DNA of 64,000 nucleotides, taken from contig JARLGI010000011.1 in the NCBI GenBank assembly GCA_031296115.1, positions 1-64,000 of the forward strand, written 5' to 3'. The stretch is from Acidobacteriota bacterium (GTDB lineage: Bacteria > Acidobacteriota > Terriglobia > Terriglobales > Acidobacteriaceae). A program made the position numbers and the translations under genes. Positions 50,753 through 63,518 of the stretch are shown piece after piece (position 1 is the first letter of the stretch; every line of letters begins with the position of its first letter). The notes below the pieces were generated by a model. The model had not been told where the DNA came from. It was given only the letters and a program-made list of their open reading frames with translations, and made no database searches.

Positions 50753-51871
50753 CTACCTGCCTTTCACCACCCCGGCAAACAGCTTTTCGTACTTCTCTGC
50801 GATGGCTTCCCAGCGATAGAGCGCGTCGGCGCGCTGCTTGGCGCGGGTGGCCAATTCCTGGCGCGCGGCCGGATCATCGAGCAGCGCCTGCAGCTTTTGC
50901 GCGAGGTTCTGCTCCGACTTCGCATACTTGATCCCTGCATTGCCGGCCGTCTCGGTGTTCTCCGGGGTGTCGAGATACAGAATGGCGTTGCTGGCGGCCA
51001 TGGCCTCGATTAGCGCCGGATGCACGCCGCCAATCTCGCACGCGAAGACGAACGCTCCGGCACGCTTTTGCAGGGCCCAGTAGCCGTCACCGTAGATTGC
51101 GCCGGTAAAGAGGACGCGCTCGTCGCCCAGCGATTTCAATTCCTGCAGGTAATTCGGCTTATAGGAATTGTCGCCCACGATTACCAGCGGCCAGTCGCTG
51201 CGCACCTTGCGCCACGCGCGCAACACCAGGTCGGGATTGTTCTCCGGCTCCAGCCGGCTGACGTAGAGCACGTAGCCACCGGACTGGAGATGAAAGCCGT
51301 TCACGGCGAACTCGCCGGTGCTGGTCACGGGAGTCGGATCGCCCGCAGGCGCCTCCGAGCCATACCCAATCACCACGGACTCACTGCCGTACTTGCCAAG
51401 GTAGTAATCGTGGATGGCGCGCGCGTCGGTGACCAGCTGGCTGGAGCTGAACGACGACATCCATTCGCAGAAGTGCAGTACCTGCGCGCCCAAGCCGCGC
51501 CACTTCTCCCGTTTGCGGTCGAGGCCGTCCACGTTGAGCACCACGGGCTTGCCGAAGAGCCGCGGGACGTAGGCGAAGGGGCTGTTCGCGACGTTGCACA
51601 TCAGCACGATGTCGTGGTCACTGAATGCCGCGTGGGTGGCGGCGAAGCAGGTGCTGACCCAGGTGTCGAGATGCTTCTGGTGCAGGCTGGGAACGATGAC
51701 GCGCCGCACCCGGCGGTCGTAGATGTCGTCGGGACAGGTGAAGGCGCGACGGCAATAGACGGTGATCTGGTGCCCGTGATCGGCGAAGCGCGAGCTGATT
51801 GCTTCGGCAAAGCGCTCGAAGCCGCCGTAATGGTTGGGGATGCCGCGCGTGCCGACGATGGCGATTTTCAT
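50753..51871 (-). CDS. Glycosyltransferase with DUF1972 (GT4-like, rhamnosyltransferase type)
   Basis: 372 residues with the GT-B fold. The N-terminus MKIAIVGTRGIPNHYGGFER is the DUF1972 signature seen in rhamnosyl- and other polysaccharide glycosyltransferases. The C-terminal half is GT4-like: LYVSRLEPENNPDLVLRAW, then a sugar-nucleotide site around ACEIGGVHPALIEAMAASNA. The acceptor and sugar are unknown. It follows the GT2 gene by 5 bases on the same strand. Heptad repeats form the junction. Confidence 0.87.
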   Translation of the reverse strand: MKIAIVGTRGIPNHYGGFERFAEAISSRFADHGHQITVYCRRAFTCPDDIYDRRVRRVIVPSLHQKHLDTWVSTCFAATHAAFSDHDIVLMCNVANSPFAYVPRLFGKPVVLNVDGLDRKREKWRGLGAQVLHFCEWMSSFSSSQLVTDARAIHDYYLGKYGSESVVIGYGSEAPAGDPTPVTSTGEFAVNGFHLQSGGYVLYVSRLEPENNPDLVLRAWRKVRSDWPLVIVGDNSYKPNYLQELKSLGDERVLFTGAIYGDGYWALQKRAGAFVFACEIGGVHPALIEAMAASNAILYLDTPENTETAGNAGIKYAKSEQNLAQKLQALLDDPAARQELATRAKQRADALYRWEAIAEKYEKLFAGVVKGR

Positions 51872-51872
51872 T

Positions 51873-51893
51873 TTCGCTATTCGCTATTCGCGG
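51873..51893 (+). repeat. Heptanucleotide repeat site D at the GT2/GT1 junction
   Basis: TTCGCTA, TTCGCTA, TTCGCGG in 7-base steps. On the minus strand the repeats encode the last codons of the GT2 gene and the short spacer before the next start. Confidence 0.6.
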
Positions 51894-52887
51894 ATTGCTT
51901 CTCCGCATCCACTGACCGCGGGGTGTTACAGAACCACCATAGCAAATCGCGGTCGGAAACCTTGCGGCGCGACTGGATGATGGCCCGCTTGCGTCGAATG
52001 TTTTTCCAGGCGCCCACCCAACAGAATGTGGCCGAGATCATCCGCCAGTCGCGCAGCAACGCATAGCCGAGCGTCTGCAGGTCGCGCCAGGCGACCGGGA
52101 AGAACAGCCGCCAGCACAACCAAGTCGAGGCGTTCTTGCCGCGCATGAGGAAGCGGTTCTTCACCGAATGCCAGTTGATGACCAGGGGCAGGTCGCTGCG
52201 TCGTTCCGGGGTGACGCGACGCACGTGCCACGCCACCGCCACCGGAGTGTAGAGCGATTTCCAGCCCATGATCTGCGCCCGCCACGCAAGGTCGCCGTCT
52301 TCGCGGAAGGCGAAGAACTCCTCGTCAAAGAACTGGCCTTCGACCGTGACGGCATCGATAAACTCGCGGCGAAACATGGCCGCCGCCCCGGTGGCGCCGA
52401 AGACGTATTGCGCGCGATCGTATTGTCCGTTGTCCCGCTCTTCCGCGCCGCGATCGAGATGCCGCATGTTACGGGTGAAGTAGATACCGGTGGAATCGAT
52501 GATTCTGGTGCGGTGCTGCGGTGCCCCGGGGTCCCAGCGCAGCAGCTTGCCGCAAAGGGTTCCTGCGTAGGGATGAGCTTCGCCGGCCGCGACAAGCTGA
52601 CTAACGAAGTCAGGATTGAGCAGCACGTCGGGGTTGAGGCACAGTATCCACTGCCCGCGGGCCTCGCGAATCGCCTGGTTCTGGCCGGCGGCGAAGCCGG
52701 TGTTGGTCTGGTTGTAAATCACGCGCCAGCGCGACTCGACTTCACGCAGCGCCGCGGGCGTGCCATCGGTCGAAGCGTTATCGACGATGATGACTTCCAG
52801 GTCGCGGTAGTCCAGCGCCGCGAGCGAAGCGAAACACTCGCGGAGAACCTGCTCGGAATTCCAGGTGACGATGGTGACTGAGACCAT
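51877..52887 (-). CDS. GT2-family glycosyltransferase
   Basis: About 336 residues from the ATG at 52887; the ORF track begins at an in-frame TTG nine codons earlier and neither has a good ribosome binding site. The GT-A fold is clear: VSVTIVTWNSEQVLRECFAS at the start, VIIVDNASTDGT, and FVSQLVAAGEAHPYAGTLCG. The metal-binding region is ILCLNPDVLL. This resembles rhamnosyltransferases that build O-antigen or exopolysaccharide. A short hydrophobic stretch near the C-terminus may contact the membrane. Translation is probably coupled to the following glycosyltransferase. Confidence 0.88.
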   Translation of the reverse strand: MVSVTIVTWNSEQVLRECFASLAALDYRDLEVIIVDNASTDGTPAALREVESRWRVIYNQTNTGFAAGQNQAIREARGQWILCLNPDVLLNPDFVSQLVAAGEAHPYAGTLCGKLLRWDPGAPQHRTRIIDSTGIYFTRNMRHLDRGAEERDNGQYDRAQYVFGATGAAAMFRREFIDAVTVEGQFFDEEFFAFREDGDLAWRAQIMGWKSLYTPVAVAWHVRRVTPERRSDLPLVINWHSVKNRFLMRGKNASTWLCWRLFFPVAWRDLQTLGYALLRDWRMISATFCWVGAWKNIRRKRAIIQSRRKVSDRDLLWWFCNTPRSVDAEKQSANSE

Positions 52888-53229
52888 TGAGCCAGTGCGC
52901 TCGGGTGTGCGCAAGCTCCAGTTTAGGCGAGTTACTTATGAAATGGCGATTTCCGTGCGCCGGGATAAACCGGCATGAAGCAGAGAATGCAAAATTCTTA
53001 CGAGAAAGGATTAGCGGTCCGCTCGGCCCCGAGTCTTGCGCTGCTACCGCGAGGGACGCAGTGAAGCGTAGACAGGGGTATAGGCGGGGTGGGCGATTGA
53101 GCTGTGAAAGCATACAGCCCGGACGCCGACGTCGTTGAAATGTGCGGAAGGCAACATGGACAGGAGCGCCAACGCGAGTTCCTGCACAGTCCGGCGTAGT
53201 CGAAGACCCCAGGCACGCCTAGAAACTTC

Positions 53230-53959
53230 ATGCACGAGAACCGGGAGACCTCAGAGGCACCTGTTGCCCAGCCGGGTCGCAGGTCGGCGGGTGAAGGCCA
53301 GAGCCATACGGCCCGCATGCACGTCGCTGAGGAGTCACACAGCGGCATAACGCTGTCATACGCTCTCTTGAGGAAGAAGGTGAACTACGTTCTTGACGCC
53401 GACATTCGCGGGTTTTTCGATAACCTCGACAACGGTTGGCTGATCAAGTTCGTGAAGCATCGCGTTGCCGACCGCCGCATTCTGCGGTTGATCCAGAAAG
53501 GGATGAACGCCGGGGTGATGGAGGAGGGCGAATGGTTGGAAACGAAGACAGGCACGCCGCAAGGGGCAGTGGTTTCGCCGCTACTCGCGAATGCCTATCT
53601 GCATTTACGTTTTCGATCTCTGGGTGGAAGTCTGGCGCAAGAAGTGTGCGCAAGGCGACGTGGTGGTGGTCCGCTATGCGGACGACATCATCTTAGGATT
53701 CCAATATCAGGTCGAAGCAGATCGTTTCCTGGATAGCTTGCGGGAACGGCTGGGGAAGTTTGGGTTGGAACTCCATCCAGAAAAGACGCGCCGGATTGAG
53801 TTCAGCAGATATGCCGAACGAAACCGGGAACGAAGAGGAGAAGGCAAGCCGGAGACATTCGACTTTCTAGGCTTCACGCATATTAGCGGGAAGAATGCGT
53901 TGGGACGTTTCGCGGTACGGCGAACGACGATCCGCAAGCGCATGCGAGCCAAGCTGTGA
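53230..53959 (+). pseudogene. ltrA: Group II intron reverse transcriptase/maturase, deleted and frameshifted
   Basis: The first frame (53230-53736) begins HENRETSEAPVAQPGRRSAG, the usual N-terminus of this maturase class. It then jumps after only about 40 residues to KKVNYVLDADIRGFFDNLDN, the core of RT domain 3, so domains 0-2 are missing. GTPQGAVVSPLLANAYLH is present. A frameshift near 53610 moves the rest to another frame, where FDLWVEVWRKK and the catalytic VVRYADDIILGF follow (53591-53959). The thumb, maturase and endonuclease regions are missing after the early TGA. It is not functional. Confidence 0.88.
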
Positions 53960-54174: not shown

Positions 54175-54195
54175 AGCAAATAGCCACTGGCAACT
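54175..54195 (+). repeat. Heptanucleotide repeat site E at the kinase stop
   Basis: AGCAAAT, AGCCACT, GGCAACT in 7-base steps, close to the AGCAACT unit of array A. The last unit overlaps the kinase stop codon by two bases. Confidence 0.55.
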
Positions 54196-55162
54196 AGTCC
54201 TGAGCTTTCATGGGTGCGCGATCGACCATGGCCAACTCCGCTAGCATCGTTTGTCGTAGGCTTTGGAAACGGCGGCTGAGTTCCGCGGGATTCGGCCTAA
54301 ACGCCGGACGTGCCGACAGCATCCTGTCCAACGAGCAAAGCAAGGCGGTGCTCGCGGCAAGCCTCTGGCCGCTCGCCCGGATGCCGTCGGTTAAGGCGCC
54401 CTGGTCACCGTCCGTGGGATGCCGCCCCAGTAAGCATTGCAGCATTACTACGCCCAGTGAAAAAACGTCGGAAGCGCAGGACAATGCATCCGCCCCTTTG
54501 ATCTGCTCCGGCGAAAAGTAGCCCCAGGTTCCGATAGGCCTAACTGCGGCACGACGGTCGGGTTGATCTAAATATCTGGAAGGCCTGAGTGTACGAGTAT
54601 TGTGCAGGTTTAAATAGCGGGCGGCACCGAGGTCGATGAGAACGGCGCGGTCCACCGAGCCGAGCATCATGTAGCCGCCGGAGTTTCTAACCATGATGTT
54701 CGATGGCTTTATGTCTCCATGAACAATGCGTTGCGACCAAATTTCCGCAATCGCGGACAAGACATCGCGTCCTATGGCCAGCACTTCGGATTCCAGCAGC
54801 GGTCCGTTTTTCAACAGAACGCTCAGTGGTTGTCCCTCGATGAATTCAGACGCGATATATCGCGTGCATCGACCAGCCACGTCACAATAGCCATACTCTA
54901 TCAGCCGGGCCAGGTTGGGATGGGAGAAGTTCTCCGTCGCGGGGATCTCGGGCTGCACGCGATCGGTCTTCCTGCGATCGAAGTGTAACTTCAGAGCTAC
55001 CACGTCATTCGCCGCTGTGCCGTCTGGCTGAGAGGTTCTGGTCGCCCTAAAAACTGCTCCCTGACCACCAACGGCAATTTCGGGACCAATGACGTAGCGC
55101 CGACCCAGCGCAGCTTCTATATCTTCAGGGACAAACTCGCAGAGATACCGATGGACAGCCAT
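54194..55162 (-). CDS. Serine/threonine protein kinase (Hanks type)
   Basis: About 322 residues from the ATG at 55162. The longer ORF (to 55264) adds 34 residues with no kinase similarity. The kinase core is complete: IAVGGQGAVFRA as glycine loop, VVALKLHF with the lysine, IVHGDIKPSNIMV as catalytic loop, VLIDLGAARYLN in place of DFG (DLG), and GTWGYFSPEQIKG as the APE-like block. No membrane span or sensor domain is seen, so it is probably cytoplasmic. It lies in the polysaccharide region next to a group II intron. Substrates are unknown. Confidence 0.85.
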   Translation of the reverse strand: MAVHRYLCEFVPEDIEAALGRRYVIGPEIAVGGQGAVFRATRTSQPDGTAANDVVALKLHFDRRKTDRVQPEIPATENFSHPNLARLIEYGYCDVAGRCTRYIASEFIEGQPLSVLLKNGPLLESEVLAIGRDVLSAIAEIWSQRIVHGDIKPSNIMVRNSGGYMMLGSVDRAVLIDLGAARYLNLHNTRTLRPSRYLDQPDRRAAVRPIGTWGYFSPEQIKGADALSCASDVFSLGVVMLQCLLGRHPTDGDQGALTDGIRASGQRLAASTALLCSLDRMLSARPAFRPNPAELSRRFQSLRQTMLAELAMVDRAPMKAQD

Positions 55163-55375
55163 ACGATCTACCAAGCAAGCGGCAGGCCTGCTTACGTTTC
55201 CCCCTTCACAGAATCTGCGGAAAGCTGCACTTGAGTATACCCGCGAATAGCAGCATCTGGACACACTTCCTAGGCGGCTGGGGATCGTTGGCGTGATCAG
55301 CCCTTATCAAAAGCATCCTCGCAATGGAGCACTTGGGCTACGAAAAGGGCCCTCATCGCAAGCTAGCCACTTGGC

Positions 55376-56809
55376 TTAGTATGCACCACGGCCGGAAATG
55401 ACGATGGGGATGGTGCGCAGGAAAATCTTTACGTCGAGCCACAGCGACCAGTTGTCGATGTAGGTGAGGTCAAGCTCCATCCAGCGCTTGAAGTCCAGGT
55501 GATTGCGGCCTTCCAGCACCCAGGTGCAGGTCAGGCCGGGCCGCATGCGCAGGCGCCGTCGCTGCCAGTCCTCGTACTGCTCAACTTCCTCGGGAACTGC
55601 CGGTCTGGGGCCTACGAACGACATCTCGCCGCGCAGGACATTCCACAGCTGCGGCAGCTCGTCGAGGCTGAAGCGCCGCAACCAGCGGCCGACCGGCGTG
55701 ATGCGCGGATCGTCGCTGATTTTGAAGACCGGGCCGTCAAGCTCGTTCAACTGGTGCAACTCGGCGCGCATCTGCTCGGCGTTATTAATCATGGAGCGGA
55801 ACTTGTAGATGGTGAATTTCCGGCCGCCCAATCCGCAGCGCGTTTGGCGAAACATCACCGGGCCGGGCGAGCTGATGCGGATCATAGCGGCAATGCAGGC
55901 GAGGACCGACGATAGCAGCAGGAGCGAGACCGCCGAAAGGGCAACATCAAAGACCCGCTTGAAGAAAAGCCGTAATTCACTGTCGGGCGCGCTGGAAAGG
56001 CTGAGCAACTCGATGTCGCGAAACTTGTCAAGATAAATCCGCGAGTAGGCGGCGGGTAGAAACTCCAGCTGAACACGGGTCTTCACGCCCACGTCGGCAC
56101 AGTGCTGCAGGACAGGCTCCAGTCGCGCCAGTTCCTGCATGCCGACCGCGAAGACAACTTCGTCGACCACTTGCTTGTGCAGGATTTCCGAGACCGCGTC
56201 CAGCGGGAACACCTCGTAGCGTCCAACTTTCTCGGAGGGCCCCTCGCGGGAATCGGGATCGACAAAGCCGATGAGCCGCAGGCCGGTGGCGCGACTGGCT
56301 TCGATCAGCGTCGCCATCGCGCGGGCGCGCGGTCCGCACCCGACAATCAGCATATAGTGATAACGCCCCAGCTGTTCGCGCATCCACGCGGCGCTGGCGT
56401 GCGAGCCCCCCCGCCCAATCAGCAGTAACACAAAATCGACCACGCCGATCAGCAGCACGTAGCTGCGGCTGATGTCGGGACGGCGGAACAGGTACAAACC
56501 GGCGTAGATGACTACCAGGACGATGGCAAGCTGGTTGACGATATTCAGGATGAGTTGCAAAGGGTTGCTGAGTTCCAGATCACGATAGAAGCTGGAGAAG
56601 TAGCCCACCACGGCCCACGTGACCAGAAACGCCACCAGCAGCGGCAGATAATGGGCGAATGGGTAAATGTCGGGAAAGCGCCGGCTGAAGAATTCAAAAT
56701 GGACCAGCAGACTGCGCAGCAGGTACGCGACCACGAAGGCGACACAGGTCACCGCCAAGTCGTGAAGTAAAGTGACCGTACTGAGTAGTTTGGACCGTCG
56801 ATCAAACAC
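55376..56809 (-). CDS. Polyprenyl glycosylphosphotransferase (initiating exopolysaccharide sugar transferase)
   Basis: 477 residues. Four N-terminal membrane helices (up to about residue 130) lead to a CoA-binding-like Rossmann domain (YHYMLIVGCGPRARAMATLI). One further helix (VFDVALSAVSLLLLSSVLAC) precedes the catalytic bacterial sugar transferase domain, with KFRSMINNAEQMR, DELPQLWNVLRGEMSFVGPR and RPGLTCTWVLEGRNHLDF. Such enzymes transfer a sugar phosphate to undecaprenyl phosphate, starting repeat-unit assembly. The start at 56809 is a GTG with no strong ribosome binding site. It is divergent from the ligase gene. Confidence 0.93.
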   Translation of the reverse strand: MFDRRSKLLSTVTLLHDLAVTCVAFVVAYLLRSLLVHFEFFSRRFPDIYPFAHYLPLLVAFLVTWAVVGYFSSFYRDLELSNPLQLILNIVNQLAIVLVVIYAGLYLFRRPDISRSYVLLIGVVDFVLLLIGRGGSHASAAWMREQLGRYHYMLIVGCGPRARAMATLIEASRATGLRLIGFVDPDSREGPSEKVGRYEVFPLDAVSEILHKQVVDEVVFAVGMQELARLEPVLQHCADVGVKTRVQLEFLPAAYSRIYLDKFRDIELLSLSSAPDSELRLFFKRVFDVALSAVSLLLLSSVLACIAAMIRISSPGPVMFRQTRCGLGGRKFTIYKFRSMINNAEQMRAELHQLNELDGPVFKISDDPRITPVGRWLRRFSLDELPQLWNVLRGEMSFVGPRPAVPEEVEQYEDWQRRRLRMRPGLTCTWVLEGRNHLDFKRWMELDLTYIDNWSLWLDVKIFLRTIPIVISGRGAY

Positions 56810-57001: not shown

Positions 57002-58549
57002 ATGGCCACCGACCAGCCAAACTCTCCGACGCAAACAGTAAAATCCGCGGCTTCCCCGGAAGCGGTGGGTATTGCTGCGGGCGGTTCCGGGGTGGGAAAG
57101 CGCTGGCTCGATGGCGGGATGTTCCTGCTGCTGATGCTATTTGCCGTACTGCTGCCGCACTCCATCAAGGGAGCGCAGAATGCGTGGAAACTGGCGTTCC
57201 TCTTGTGGCTGGTAAAGCTACTGATCGAGCGCAAACGGCCGTGGCCGCAACCGCTCGCCGCTCCTCTGCTCGCCTACGTGGTGCTCAGCTCAGTGTCGAC
57301 CGCGCTAAGTTCCGAACCTTACCTCAGCTGGGACCGCATGAAGATTGTCTGCCTGGTGCTGGTGGGAGTGGTGTTTGCGCAAAACCTGAGGCGCCTCAGC
57401 CAGGTGCGAATCCTTGTGTTTCTGCTGGTCCTTTCAGGGCTGGCCGCCGCGGGGTTCACAGCCTGGCAATACACCTATGGGGTGGGCGTGCAGGTGACCT
57501 ACATTCTTCCCGGGACGCCGCTGTATCGGGCGGGTGTCCGGCCCAATGACATCGTCACCCGGGTTGGCGGGCGCGACGTTCACACTCCGGCACAGCTGGA
57601 ACATGCCGTGCTGCAAAGCCCGCCGGGCGCGATGCTTTGTATTAATCTGCTGCGGAGCTTTCCTTTCCAGTCTGAGGAGACTTACGTCAGCGGCGACGGC
57701 TTTCTGCAGAGCGGGCTGGGCACCCCATCGCTGCGGTTTGCCCTCGGCAGACCCAGCCGCGCCCAGGGCACGCTGGGCCACTACGTCATCTTTGCCGAGA
57801 TGCTGATGCAGATTGGCTGCATGGCCTGGGCCATGATGCTATGCACACCAGCGCGTAACCGCGGGCTGCAGATACTGTTTGCTATCGTCTTTGTCGCGAT
57901 GGCGATCACCATCCTTGCCACCGAGACCCGTGCGGCGATTACGGGCTTGGCGCTGGGGTGCTTCGTCGCGCTGCTGGTTCTTGCCGGGCGGCGTGCCCGG
58001 ATAGGGGCGACCTCCGCTTTAATCGTTCTGGTTATCGCCTCCGGTATCTGGATCCAGCACGCCCGCGGACTGCACTGGATGGACAGCCACGATCCGGGAA
58101 CCAGTTTTCGGATCCTGATGTGGGAGGACGGGCTGCGTCTCGTCCGCCAACACCCCTGGTTCGGCGTTGGCATGGAAACCGTCCGGGTCCACTACCAGGA
58201 ATGGAAAATTCACGGGTTCCTGCAGTACCACGTGATGAGCCATTTTCACTCCACGTTCCTGCAGATCGCGGTGGAGCGGGGCCTGCTCACCCTCGCCGCC
58301 TGGATATGGTTCGTGGTCGCCTATCTGGTATTCCTGCTTCGCCTGCAGCGCAGGGCACAGGAGCAAAGCCGCTTTGCGACAGGAGTTGTCGCCGGTGCGC
58401 TGGCCGGGGTCCTCGCCTTTCAGGCCACTTCCCTGGTGCACTATAACCTGGGCGAGGAATCGCTGGTGATGGTTCTGTTCTTCTACTTTGGACTGGCGGT
58501 GGCGATCGAGCGGCTGCTGCGCGAGCCCAGCGCGGTTGACGTGGGATGA
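57002..58549 (+). CDS. O-antigen ligase/polymerase-like protein with an embedded PDZ-like segment
   Basis: 515 residues with about ten membrane helices. The large C-terminal periplasmic loop with FRILMWEDGLRLVRQHPWFG and ETVRVHYQEWKIHGF fits the Wzy/WaaL O-antigen ligase family, which polymerises or attaches O-antigen. Between helices near residues 160 and 225 lies an insert, GTPLYRAGVRPNDIVTRVGG followed by PAQLEHAVLQSPPGAMLCIN. This is the second half of a PDZ domain as seen in S1C and S41 proteases. An O-antigen ligase carrying a PDZ-like insert is unusual. It likely lies outside the membrane and may bind a partner. Confidence 0.82.
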   Translation: MATDQPNSPTQTVKSAASPEAVGIAAGGSGVGKRWLDGGMFLLLMLFAVLLPHSIKGAQNAWKLAFLLWLVKLLIERKRPWPQPLAAPLLAYVVLSSVSTALSSEPYLSWDRMKIVCLVLVGVVFAQNLRRLSQVRILVFLLVLSGLAAAGFTAWQYTYGVGVQVTYILPGTPLYRAGVRPNDIVTRVGGRDVHTPAQLEHAVLQSPPGAMLCINLLRSFPFQSEETYVSGDGFLQSGLGTPSLRFALGRPSRAQGTLGHYVIFAEMLMQIGCMAWAMMLCTPARNRGLQILFAIVFVAMAITILATETRAAITGLALGCFVALLVLAGRRARIGATSALIVLVIASGIWIQHARGLHWMDSHDPGTSFRILMWEDGLRLVRQHPWFGVGMETVRVHYQEWKIHGFLQYHVMSHFHSTFLQIAVERGLLTLAAWIWFVVAYLVFLLRLQRRAQEQSRFATGVVAGALAGVLAFQATSLVHYNLGEESLVMVLFFYFGLAVAIERLLREPSAVDVG

Positions 58550-58639: not shown

Positions 58640-60337
58640 ATGAAGCCGATCGCCACTAGTCCGAGCGGAACCGAGAACCCGAACGCGCCTGCCCATTCGC
58701 CGCGCGGGAGCGTCTGGCTGCCCGCGTTGCTTCTCGCGTTGTTTGCGATGCAATCGCTGTGGTTCATTCGAACCCAGTCGCTCACCTATGACGAGCCGGC
58801 GCACATCATTGCCGGTGTAGAAGCCTGGCAGCAGGGCAAGTTCGAGCATTGGAACGACCATCCGCCCTTGGGCCGGTTGTGGCTCACCCTGCCGCTGGCA
58901 GGCAGGGGCGTGGAATTCGCGTGGGAGCAATTGCCGGTCGGCTTTCGGGTGACGGCCATGCGTCCCGGCCCCGAATGGCTGGCGTGGCAAACGCGTCCCA
59001 TGAACACGCTGCTCGGCGTGGCGCTGGGCCTTGGCTTGTGGTTCGTGGCACGCCGGCTGTTCTCGCAGGGTGCCGCTACCCTGACCCTGGCGCTGTTTGG
59101 GTCCACGCCTTCGCTGATTGCGAACTTCTCGCTGGCCACCACCGACGGCATCGGAGCCTTGTTCATATTTCTTACCGCATTCCAACTGGTACGGTGGCGA
59201 CGGAATCCAAGTGGCGCACAGACGGCTGTGATAGGCGTGGCCCTCGGCGGTTTGCTGCTGTCGAAGTTCTACGCGCCGCCGCTGGTGTTGCTTGCTCTGG
59301 CCTTAATGCTGGTGCTTGAGCGGAATGAGGTTGTGCTGTCGCCACTCAACTGGAACTGGAGGCCTGCGTTTGCGGCATTCGTCATCGCGCTGGCTATGCT
59401 GTGGGCGGGGTACTTTTTCCATGTGGCGCACCTCAAAGTCGGCGATGGCGAGGTAGTAGCCAGCTTCCCCAACCGTGCGGTCAAGGCATGGGCGACGAAA
59501 TCCACGGCGCGGGTCAACGCACTTGTACCGGCGGGGGAGTTCCTGGAAGGGCTGCGGGAGGTGGCTCTCCGCAACCGGCGCGGGCGGCCGGCGTGGTTCC
59601 TCGGCCAGGTTTATCCCAGGGGCGGCATCAAGCTCTACTATCCCGTGGCCATCGCGTTGAAGTGGCCGACTATTGTGCTGCTGCTGTTTTTCGCCAGCCT
59701 GATATTAGGCGTTCGAAAAACTTGCCGCGCGCCCAGCGACTTGCTGGTCATGTCGCTGTTCGGCGTGGTGTATCTGGTGTTCGCTTTGCAGTCCGGATAT
59801 GACATTGGCGAGCGCCACATCCTGCCGCTTTATCCCTTCGCCCTGCTGATCGCGGGCGGGATTTGGGAGCACGCGCGCAAGCAACGCTGGGCTGTCGGCA
59901 TTCTCGTTTTGGCATTGTGCCTGAACGCCGCCGACGCCCTGCGCTACGGTCCCGGGTATCTTTCCTACTTCAATGTGTTCGTGAAGCCTACTGAAAGCTG
60001 GCGGTTGTTGACCGACAGCAACCTCGATTGGGGGCAGGGCCTGCTGGCGCTGCGCGATTACGAACGGCAGCATCCGAACGAGACGTTGCAGCTTGCTTAT
60101 TTCGGCTCGGTCGAGCCTTCGCTGTATGGCGTTCGCGCGACACCGCTTGCGCCCGGCGAACCCGTGGGGGGAACAGTTGTAGCCGGTGCGACCTGCCTCT
60201 CCGGACAAACGCTGGACGATCCGACAGGGTATCAATGGCTTTGGAGCTATCCGCCTCGCCAGGTACTGGATCACGCGCTGTGGGTCTTCGATACCGACCA
60301 GAAATTGCAATCGCGGGTGCAAAGGCAATACCATTGA
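58640..60337 (+). CDS. GT39-like membrane glycosyltransferase (dolichyl-phosphate-mannose-type)
   Basis: About 565 residues from the ATG at 58640, which has an AGGAG site 6 bases upstream. The TTG used by the ORF track overlaps that site. The protein has about ten membrane helices. The first external loop carries the conserved acidic motif in LTYDEPAHIIAGVEAW, then HPPLGRLWLTL. This Asp-Glu motif is typical of GT-C enzymes that take a sugar from a polyprenyl phosphate. The C-terminal periplasmic part begins near SNLDWGQGLLALRDYE. It may modify lipopolysaccharide, exopolysaccharide or proteins. Confidence 0.83.
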   Translation: MKPIATSPSGTENPNAPAHSPRGSVWLPALLLALFAMQSLWFIRTQSLTYDEPAHIIAGVEAWQQGKFEHWNDHPPLGRLWLTLPLAGRGVEFAWEQLPVGFRVTAMRPGPEWLAWQTRPMNTLLGVALGLGLWFVARRLFSQGAATLTLALFGSTPSLIANFSLATTDGIGALFIFLTAFQLVRWRRNPSGAQTAVIGVALGGLLLSKFYAPPLVLLALALMLVLERNEVVLSPLNWNWRPAFAAFVIALAMLWAGYFFHVAHLKVGDGEVVASFPNRAVKAWATKSTARVNALVPAGEFLEGLREVALRNRRGRPAWFLGQVYPRGGIKLYYPVAIALKWPTIVLLLFFASLILGVRKTCRAPSDLLVMSLFGVVYLVFALQSGYDIGERHILPLYPFALLIAGGIWEHARKQRWAVGILVLALCLNAADALRYGPGYLSYFNVFVKPTESWRLLTDSNLDWGQGLLALRDYERQHPNETLQLAYFGSVEPSLYGVRATPLAPGEPVGGTVVAGATCLSGQTLDDPTGYQWLWSYPPRQVLDHALWVFDTDQKLQSRVQRQYH

Positions 60338-60344
60338 TGGGCGT

Positions 60345-60429
60345 GCGAGAGTGGCGGAATTGGCAGACGCACCAGACTTAGGATCTGGCGGGGAAACCCG
60401 TGGGGGTTCGAGTCCCCCCTTTCGCACCA
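60345..60429 (+). tRNA. tRNA-Leu (anticodon TAG)
   Basis: 85 bases. The acceptor stem GCGAGAG pairs with CTTTCGC. The D arm is GGCGGAATTGGCAGACGC. The anticodon stem-loop CCAGA-CTTAGGA-TCTGG gives anticodon TAG. The long variable arm CGGGGAAACCCG and the T arm GGGGGTTCGAGTCCCCC follow, and CCA is encoded. The long variable arm is expected for leucine tRNAs. Confidence 0.97.
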
Positions 60430-60509
60430 GCGTTCAGGAAGTCCTCGATTGCGCCCAGGGAGCTTGGCGAGGCAGGCGACACAACCGACTAAGGGGAAAT
60501 TGCGGCTCT

Positions 60510-61004
60510 ATGTCACTTTCCAAGTCTAGTCTTACCCCAACCCTACACTTCTTCCTTGCCGGACTGTCGATCACTGTACTGGCACTGCTGGTCAGCGTTA
60601 CCGGCGCCCAAGAAGCCAAGCCCGCGGGAGCGGCCGCGAAGAGTGCCGCCAGTGCTCCCGTAGCGCGCGGCAAGTACATCGTCGAGGACGTCGCCATGTG
60701 CGGCAACTGTCATACCCCGCGGCTGCCGAATGGCGAGCTGGACAATAGCCGCTGGCTGGCCGGGGCCTCTGTGCCCTATCTGCCGGCGTGGCCCGAAGGC
60801 AGCTGGCCGATCATGGCGCCTCGCATTGCAGGCCGTCCGCCCGCGAGCGATGCCCAAATGATTACGCTATTGACGACCGCAATCTGGGTGGAGGGCAAGC
60901 CGCTTCGCGATCCAATGCCGCACTTTCATATGACGCGTGCTGACGCCGAGGCGGTACTGGCTTACCTGAAATCGCTTGCGGGAGGCCGCGACCAATCCCA
61001 ATAA
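60510..61004 (+). CDS. Exported c-type cytochrome (single heme)
   Basis: 164 residues from the ATG at 60510; the track start extends into the tRNA. An N-terminal hydrophobic segment ([20 protein letters not shown]) is a signal peptide or anchor. The heme site is CGNCH in [21 protein letters not shown] probable axial methionine lies in DPMPHFHM. The helix [13 protein letters not shown] closes the domain. Such small cytochromes c often serve as electron carriers or as subunits of dehydrogenases. No partner is adjacent, so the role is open. Confidence 0.87.
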
Positions 61005-61014
61005 CCGCCCGCCT

Positions 61015-62046
61015 TCAGTCCTTGGCCATGGCGTAGTAGCCCTGGCGGGCCTGCACCTTGTAGTTGCCGTCCTTGGTGTGGATCTGGACCTTGCGGTACG
61101 AGCCGTCGAGCTTGTTGTTGGTGGGGGTGTAGCCAATATTGTACTGGCTCCGCAACTCGTTCTGGATTTGTTCGAAGGCTTGCCGCAACTTCTCCTGCTT
61201 GTTGCCCACTTCAATCACCCGGCCGCCGGTTTGTTCCGCCAGTTTCTTCATATCGTAGTCTCCGCTATAACCAAAGCCGCCATAAAAGCCGCGGTCGGCA
61301 ATAAGAATGACGTAACAGATGGTGTCGGCCTTCTGCGCCGCCTCGATGGCATCCTGGATGCGCAAACGGCTGCCCTGGTCCTCGCCGTCGGTGAAGACAA
61401 TCATCGCCTTGCGGCCAACTTCGTTCTTCAACTTTTCGTTAGCGCCCAGATAAATGGCGTCATACAGCAGCGTCCCGCGCGGCGTGGTGGGTATGGGGCC
61501 GCCGCCCAGCCCCGGAGGACCACCACCGAAGCCGGCGTTGATCTGCATCTTGTTCAGGGCCCGGGTCAGGAGGTGAACATTGCTGGTGAAATCCTGGTCC
61601 AGGTCCACGTCCACGTCAAAGTTAATGACGAAGGCGAGGTCCTTGTCGCGCAGCACGCTCTTGAGAAACTCGGCGCACGCCTCCTGCTCAATGGTGAGGA
61701 CGCGCGTCTGGCTGGCGCTGGTATCAATCATGATCCCCAGGGTCAGCGGCTGGTTCGATTCCGCAGAGAAATACTTGATGGTCTGGGGCTTGCCGTCTTC
61801 CAGCACCTCGAAGTCGGTCCTGGTGAGATTGGGGATCAGCATGCCATGCTTGTCCTTCACATTGAAGAACAGGTTCACGACGTTCACCTGCGCCTTGAAG
61901 GTCTGCAGCGAGTCATCGATCGGCGCTTCCTGCGATTGCTGACTGGGGGGCGCCGGTGGAGTCTGGGACTGTGCCATCAGCCAGACACTGGAGACCAGCA
62001 TCAGTGACATGGCTACCGTGAACTTGCGGACTTGCCAATGCAACAT
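61015..62046 (-). CDS. VWA-domain protein, acidobacterial VWFA-related family
   Basis: 343 residues with a signal peptide (FTVAMSLMLVSSVWLMAQS). A region with VNVVNLFFNVKDKHGMLIPN and LTRTDFEVLEDGKPQTIKYF is the N-terminal part typical of this acidobacterial family. The VWA domain follows with an intact metal site, IMIDTSAS (DxSxS). GEDQGSRLRIQDAIEAAQKA continues the fold. The last 80 residues are strands and end in IHTKDGNYKVQARQGYYAM. The function is unknown. Members are abundant in Acidobacteria and usually exported. It is divergent from a second family member. Confidence 0.85.
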   Translation of the reverse strand: MLHWQVRKFTVAMSLMLVSSVWLMAQSQTPPAPPSQQSQEAPIDDSLQTFKAQVNVVNLFFNVKDKHGMLIPNLTRTDFEVLEDGKPQTIKYFSAESNQPLTLGIMIDTSASQTRVLTIEQEACAEFLKSVLRDKDLAFVINFDVDVDLDQDFTSNVHLLTRALNKMQINAGFGGGPPGLGGGPIPTTPRGTLLYDAIYLGANEKLKNEVGRKAMIVFTDGEDQGSRLRIQDAIEAAQKADTICYVILIADRGFYGGFGYSGDYDMKKLAEQTGGRVIEVGNKQEKLRQAFEQIQNELRSQYNIGYTPTNNKLDGSYRKVQIHTKDGNYKVQARQGYYAMAKD

Positions 62047-62174: not shown

Positions 62175-63518
62175 ATGTTCAGTTGCGGATTGAGCTCCTG
62201 TATTAGAAACACCATCGTGGTAGCAACCCTGGTGTTTGCAAGCTGCGCGGTGGCGCAGCAACAACCCTTGCCCGACGCTCCAACTCCGCAGAACAATGCT
62301 CCGGCGCCGAACGTCAATGTGCCGCCGCCGCAAGGTATGCCCAGCGATGGGGGGTCTTCCTCTTCCCATGCAAACCCTGAGCAGCCGGCAAATACTCGTC
62401 CCAGTGGGCAGGAAACGCCAGGCACCACGAATCCGCAGCCCCCTCCGCCGGGTTCACAGCAGATCAAGACGGTTCCTCCGGGCAGCGTGCCGGCCACCGG
62501 CGAAAGCGGGCCCGACGAACTTTTCCGCCTGACCAAAAACGTCAGCTTCGTTACCGTTCCGGTTACCGTGAAGGATGATGAAGGCAAACTGGTGGATGGA
62601 TTGTTGCAAAAGGACTTCGTGGTTTACGAGGACGGCCAGCCACAGAAACTCTCTCTGTTTACCAGCGACCCGTTCCCGCTGTCGGCGGCGCTGATCATCG
62701 ACCAGGGCATGTCCGACCTGGCCCTGAAGAAGGTGAACCAGACCTTCTCGGCACTGGGCGGGGCGTTCGGGCCGTTCGACGAAGTGGCTGTCTTCACGTA
62801 TGGCAACACGGTCAACCAGCGCTCCGATTTCGGCAACGCCACCCGCATGGATATTGCGCTGAACCGCCTTCGCGATGAAAAAGGGCAGAACGCCGGCGTG
62901 CCACAGGTGGGCGGGCCCTTCAGCTCAGGCCCCTCGACCAACAGCAAGCCGATGACCGGCAGTCTTCCGGTGCAGACCCCTGCCAAGGAGTCGCACGTGC
63001 TGAATGACGCAATCCTGATGGCGGCACAGAACCTGGCGCGGCGTCCTCGCGTGAACCGGAAGATCATCTTCATCATCAGCGATGGCAAGGAATTCGGAAG
63101 CCGCGCCAGCTATGCCCAGGTGCTGAAGGTGCTGCTCACGGACGGGATCGCGGTTTACGCAATCGGCGTGGACTCGGCCGCCATGCCGGTCTATAACAAA
63201 GTCGAGAAACTGCGGATTCCGGGATTCGGCTACAGCAATATTCTGCCACGCTATGCCAACGCGACCGGTGGCGACGTTCTGGACGAGTTCTCCAAGGAAA
63301 ATATCGAGAGCGCCTACCAGCGCATTACGCTGGAAGCCCGCAATCAGTACACGCTGGGCTACATTACGCCGCAAAGACCTTCCGGCACGTTTCGTGATAT
63401 CGAGGTGCGGGTGAGGCGGCCCGGCCTTCAGGTCTACGCCAAGCACGGTTACTACCCGCTGCCTCCGCAGCGTGCCGAAACTCAGCCGACGGCGGGGGCG
63501 GAGCCGCAAAAGCAGTAA
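62175..63518 (+). CDS. VWA-domain protein, acidobacterial VWFA-related family, with altered metal site
   Basis: 447 residues. After a signal-like N-terminus (TIVVATLVFASCAVAQ) comes a Pro/Gln/Asn-rich spacer of about 90 residues. The family block VSFVTVPVTVKDDEGKLVDG with LLQKDFVVYEDGQPQKLSLF is clear. In the VWA domain the metal motif reads ALIIDQGMSD (DxGxS), not DxSxS. Metal binding may be weakened or lost. ISDGKEFGSRASYAQVLKVL and the C-terminal RDIEVRVRRPGLQVYAKHGY match its divergent neighbour. The pair probably arose by duplication. A possible lipobox-like ASCA is visible at the signal cleavage region. Confidence 0.85.
   Translation: MFSCGLSSCIRNTIVVATLVFASCAVAQQQPLPDAPTPQNNAPAPNVNVPPPQGMPSDGGSSSSHANPEQPANTRPSGQETPGTTNPQPPPPGSQQIKTVPPGSVPATGESGPDELFRLTKNVSFVTVPVTVKDDEGKLVDGLLQKDFVVYEDGQPQKLSLFTSDPFPLSAALIIDQGMSDLALKKVNQTFSALGGAFGPFDEVAVFTYGNTVNQRSDFGNATRMDIALNRLRDEKGQNAGVPQVGGPFSSGPSTNSKPMTGSLPVQTPAKESHVLNDAILMAAQNLARRPRVNRKIIFIISDGKEFGSRASYAQVLKVLLTDGIAVYAIGVDSAAMPVYNKVEKLRIPGFGYSNILPRYANATGGDVLDEFSKENIESAYQRITLEARNQYTLGYITPQRPSGTFRDIEVRVRRPGLQVYAKHGYYPLPPQRAETQPTAGAEPQKQ

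Follow-up and report, generated by a model that had tools for sequence, protein, structure and literature searches.

The window, i.e., the whole stretch of 64,000 nucleotides that was analyzed, carries an intact ORF on the forward strand (57002–58549) whose product of 515 amino acids combines the core of a Wzy_C-type glycan transferase with a PDZ domain. The gene lies among others for glycan synthesis, the most relevant of which are as follows.

50753–51871, reverse strand: GT1 glycosyltransferase (with DUF1972), part of a conserved block of two glycosyltransferases and a sugar-phosphotransferase
51877–52914, reverse strand: GT2 glycosyltransferase, part of the same block
55376–56809, reverse strand: polyprenyl-phosphate sugar-phosphotransferase (Bac_transf), the divergent neighbor and an initiating enzyme of Und-PP glycans
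57002–58549, forward strand: CDS of the PDZ-containing O-antigen-ligase-fold (Wzy_C) protein, with 12 predicted transmembrane (TM) helices
58625–60337, forward strand: PMT_2 (GT-C type) membrane glycosyltransferase, downstream of the transferase and also adjoining it in genomes G001 and G083

The block of the two glycosyltransferases and the sugar-phosphotransferase was kept within the genus and also in G091, with the sugar-phosphotransferase gene next to that of the PDZ protein. In the rest of the phylum the neighbors varied and there was no phylum-wide synteny, as is the case for stand-alone waaL genes, and this was counted in favor of a ligase. Apart from the block of glycosyltransferase and sugar-transferase genes, no recurrent neighbor was found across 20 loci, and none thus pointed to a ligand of the PDZ.

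Some further features of the window were recorded. Two overlapping short ORFs at 53230–53959 (forward strand), the first with a match to RVT_1 and the second continuing in another frame with the motif 'YADDI', are probably a reverse transcriptase remnant of the group II intron type, disrupted by a frameshift, in the glycan gene block. A serine/threonine protein kinase gene (54194–55264, reverse strand) is located in the block between this remnant and the sugar-phosphotransferase gene. A tRNA-Leu (60345–60429, forward strand) lies directly 3' of the PMT_2 gene, and the listed ORF at 60186–61004 reads through it, so the start of this ORF is probably wrong. Two neighboring genes in opposite orientation, at 61015–62046 (reverse strand) and 62175–63518 (forward strand), encode secreted proteins with von Willebrand factor A (VWA), a kind of protein that may recur in Acidobacteria.

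The PDZ domain and its position

The sequence-only reading had noted a PDZ-like segment between two membrane helices and took residues 160–225 for the C-terminal half of a PDZ domain. Pfam, profile searches, AlphaFold2, and Foldseek all recovered the segment, but as a complete permuted domain that runs to about residue 250, which excludes a half PDZ. Two features were delimited in this part of the gene.

57482–57751, forward strand: circularly permuted PDZ domain, predicted periplasmic (residues ~161–250)
57731–57748, forward strand: last PDZ strand (residues 244–249), the counterpart of the 'LGI/LGF' strand in RseP-type PDZs

With Pfam, PDZ_6 matched residues 165–203 of the ORF product (E=2.8e-7; 30.6 bits against a cut-off of 27), and PDZ_2 matched residues 162–218 barely above its cut-off (27.3 against 27 bits). 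A PDZ profile made without any member of the window's own family (Acidobacteriaceae; hereafter, f1) scored 26.4 bits on the window protein (P0001) versus 6.4 bits for the best of 1000 shuffled inserts, indicating that the match is not due to chance. A profile of 46 inserts matched DegQ in the PDB at E=3e-18 and aligned with an RseP orthologue over almost the entire length, and the 'RLGF' strand of the RseP-like protein from the same genome as the window was aligned to the final strand of the insert. The LGI/LGF-type motif in this last strand was kept in most members outside f1 and is degenerate in f1, including the window protein.

The AlphaFold2 model of the insert alone (46 sequences) had a pLDDT of 82 with a core of about 90, and that of the whole protein (9 sequences) had a moderate pLDDT of 72 with PDZ blocks of about 80–90. 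Both models gave a strand-helix-strand-helix-strand-strand-helix-strand order for residues 162–249. When the insert was searched using Foldseek, MucP PDZ1 was matched at full length (TMt 0.70; 97 columns of the 96-residue domain) and the HtrA/DegP PDZs at an rmsd of 1.3–1.8 Å over 69 residues; GRASP domains were matched as well. Given the agreement of Pfam, the PDB profile search, and the two AlphaFold models with Foldseek, the insert is, as modeled, a complete, circularly permuted PDZ domain of the RseP/MucP type. The predicted structure, which the sequence-only reading had named as the point on which its proposal would stand or fall, thus has the PDZ fold.

In the AlphaFold2 model, the domain sits between helix 132–159 (TM5) and helix 261–281 (TM6). 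The twelve helices, the positive-inside pattern, and the side of the catalytic residues together place it in the periplasm, on the same side as those residues, according to the predicted topology. It ends three residues before Arg253. The loop at this site has 87–113 amino acids in the PDZ clade versus 7–20 in the closest enzymes of the phylum that lack a PDZ, which shows that the PDZ took the place of a short periplasmic loop.

The match of PDZ_2 barely above the Pfam cut-off could be read as PDZ-like letters arising by chance in an ordinary loop, or the fusion as a mis-assembly. The significant profile matches, the PDZ fold, and the shuffle control, along with an identical insert position in 50 proteins from independent genomes, leave a practically negligible probability for such an artefact, and we consider it ruled out.

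The transferase core and its catalytic residues

The remainder of the protein had been read as Wzy/WaaL-type, with which the searches agreed. Its main features are as follows.

57758–57760, forward strand: Arg253 codon, the first conserved core residue after the PDZ (Arg in 50 of 51 sequences, Lys in one)
57884–58306, forward strand: Wzy_C (PF04932) region by Pfam (residues 295–435)
57929–57931, forward strand: Arg310 codon, aligned to WaaL Arg191
58064–58282, forward strand: large periplasmic catalytic loop (residues 355–427)
58109–58111, forward strand: Arg370 codon, aligned to WaaL Arg265
58241–58249, forward strand: His414-Phe-His416, with His416 corresponding to WaaL His313

Wzy_C was detected in the window protein at E=6e-24 (84.9 bits against a cut-off of 31.7) and in 17 of 17 members. 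The top Foldseek match of the whole model was the ligase WaaL (PDB 7tpg; E=2e-8, TMt 0.67), followed by SEDS proteins and PDZs, and 7tpg was the sole significant match of the core profile in the PDB (E=1.7e-12). R191, R265, and H313 of WaaL were aligned to R310, R370, and H416 of the window protein, and the equivalents of these three residues were invariant in the examined PDZ members, one assembly gap apart. In WaaL, the two arginines bind the phosphate of Und-PP, and the histidine has been proposed to activate the acceptor (PMC10920833).

GT-C1 polymerases and SEDS proteins have Asp/Glu at the position where O-ligases have His (PMC10920833). All examined PDZ members have His rather than Asp/Glu at this acceptor-activating position, which speaks for a ligase or transferase rather than a Wzy polymerase, and the earlier designation of the protein as a polymerase was therefore not borne out. 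The catalytic residues of WaaL are shared with protein O-oligosaccharyltransferases such as PglL (PMC3643930), leaving room for a protein acceptor.

Distribution and origin of the fusion

A search for the same fusion in other Acidobacteria, as had been suggested from the sequence, found the insert in all 50 Acidobacteriota relatives examined (46 aligned members and 4 more), from at least nine family-level groups. Of the eight other genomes in the genus of the window, seven had full-length insert-bearing relatives, with one split by an assembly gap. Within f1, at least nine more genera had them, as did, in the rest of the phylum, groups f13, f24, f35, f63, f72, f73, f80, and f86. In f24, matches at E≤1e-40 were detected in 67 of 80 genomes and 26 of 29 genera, counted as sequence matches, with the PDZ confirmed by eye in the fetched members only. 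Many f24 genomes (G398, G616, G593, G286, and others) had two full-length matches each, and the PDZ transferase may have been duplicated in this group. About 17 of the 200 sampled Acidobacteriaceae genomes carry the PDZ transferase, which is thus not the universal ligase of this family. Outside Acidobacteriota the search covered a plasmid collection, in which one partial match of the Wzy_C type was the sole result, and the fusion is therefore not claimed to be restricted to this phylum.

In a tree of 75 transferase cores, built with the PDZ columns taken out, one branch separated all 50 PDZ proteins from the rest (support 98/93, and 100% of bootstraps), suggesting that the PDZ was gained once and kept. 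The simplest history for this topology would be one insertion that was then inherited, perhaps along with losses or occasional lateral transfer.

Function of the PDZ transferase

The PDZ transferase is the only Wzy_C protein in the genome that contains the window (G000), and neither Wzz nor a PF01943 Wzx flippase was found in this genome, a MAG of 93.6% completeness in which absence is not proof. This would reflect either a set of contigs missing from the assembly or classical EPS clusters that were truly lost. As it stands, a sole Wzy_C protein with no Wzz or PF01943 Wzx found is more in line with a ligase than with a polymerase that works under Wzz. In the genus, the other eight genomes encode Wzz and PF01943 Wzx, and mostly several Wzy_C proteins. 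In five of these sister genomes Wzz was near different, PDZ-less Wzy_C genes, on contigs other than that of the PDZ gene, which speaks against Wzz as the partner of the PDZ protein. Wzz was accordingly rejected as a partner in the genome of the window, and the coupling to a chain-length regulator that the sequence-only reading had envisaged lost its footing. ABC-type O-antigen export (Wzt_C; PF14524) had no support either, being detected in one of the nine genomes of the genus and absent from that of the window.

On balance, we consider the protein to be probably, though far from certainly, a WaaL-type, Und-PP-dependent glycan transferase with a PDZ that docks periplasmic proteins and was gained once in Acidobacteriota. 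This reading builds on the sequence and fold of both modules, the insertion site, the single origin, the conserved active site, and the periplasmic side given by the predicted topology. A whole permuted PDZ was inserted into the periplasmic loop that leads into the conserved Arg253 segment. The Und-PP-linked glycan would be bound through R310 and R370, the acceptor would be activated by H416, and the chain would be transferred as a whole, with lipid A-core as the most likely recipient. The location of the PDZ next to the active site in all 50 relatives suggests that the transfer involves a protein, either as a partner or as a substrate, and the coupling to a periplasmic partner that the sequence-only reading had proposed is plausible. 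The PDZ may dock the tail or a strand of a periplasmic protein beside the active site, with LPS-transport, envelope, or acceptor proteins as candidates, and such docking could place or gate glycan transfer. In f1 the carboxylate-loop motif has decayed, and the binding mode may therefore differ there, perhaps toward an internal strand, or binding may be lost.

The decayed f1 motif also bears on a further reading, in which the PDZ serves as a structural element, either a spacer or a gate controlling entry to the active site, and, in Acidobacteriaceae at least, does not bind peptides. The PDZ pair of RseP is thought to act as a size filter, and the retention of the fold in f1 despite the lost LGI motif, together with a last PDZ strand that stops three residues before R253, would fit such a role. 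The LGI/LGF-type motif kept in most non-f1 members suggests, however, that the groove works there, and we regard a purely structural role as possible but doubtful. The main rival to the WaaL-type reading is a general protein O-oligosaccharyltransferase (PglL/TfpM-like function), whose PDZ would capture acceptor proteins through the C-terminus or an exposed strand and present them to H416. A module for protein binding next to the catalytic segment would make sense for such an enzyme, as would catalytic residues common to WaaL and PglL, a gene mostly outside LPS-like loci, a weak TfpM match in a single member, and PEP_O_lig_1 matches in two. However, PglL_A (PF15864) had no match at E≤0.01 in any of 17 members, neither an adjacent pilin nor a recurrent acceptor gene was found across the 20 loci, and the window gene adjoins a sugar-initiating enzyme and glycosyltransferases, as an envelope-glycan gene would. 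We therefore judge this enzyme type rather unlikely. A Wzy polymerase, with the PDZ as a link to Wzz or another chain-length partner, would be consistent with the Wzy_C fold and with the flanking Bac_transf and two glycosyltransferase genes; the His at the acceptor position, the lack of detected Wzz and PF01943 Wzx in the genome of the window, and the sister-genome Wzz genes near other Wzy_C genes on other contigs make it improbable.

Among known systems, WaaL (CAZy GT121; C. metallidurans) has the 12-TM fold, the Wzy_C region, the equivalent Arg/Arg/His residues, and the large periplasmic catalytic loop in common with the window protein, but it has no PDZ and is 14% identical in the structural alignment to 7tpg. 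The PglL/TfpM-type enzymes have the Wzy_C core and the catalytic Arg/Arg/His in common with the PDZ members, which differ from them in lacking the PglL_A motif and an adjacent pilin, and the acceptor specificity of these enzymes is not known to stem from a PDZ. The PDZs of RseP/MucP site-2 proteases and PDZ1 of HtrA/DegP/DegQ share the circularly permuted fold and the periplasmic location with the insert (DegP/HhoA PDZs at an rmsd of 1.3–1.8 Å), but they serve proteases, whereas that of the window protein is inside a glycan transferase. WadA of Brucella/Mesorhizobium, a GT121 ligase with a GT25 domain (PMC10920833), is an earlier case of an O-ligase that bears an additional soluble domain, although this domain is another glycosyltransferase, whereas the window protein has a protein-binding module within a periplasmic loop. 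A 2019 catalogue of microbial PDZs lists 12 families, mostly proteases, and no glycan transferase (PMC6411480), and we found no description of a PDZ fused to an O-antigen ligase or Wzy_C protein in the open-access literature. The parts are thus known, and their stable combination inside the transferase loop appears to be undescribed; public databases may already list the PDZ and Wzy_C architecture automatically.

Acidobacteriota are abundant soil bacteria with a little-explored envelope biology, and no paper on O-antigen ligases from this phylum turned up in a literature search. It is conceivable, if speculative, that the phylum has a widespread set of PDZ-guided transferases in which the PDZ brings periplasmic protein tails, or an acceptor-carrying transport machine, to the active site. 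If true, such transferases would make up a glycosylation or ligation system programmed by PDZs, for which no precedent has been described. With a PDZ fixed beside the Wzy_C active site across much of the phylum, protein steering of glycan transfer becomes testable, and the uses of bacterial PDZs would extend past proteases and secretion.
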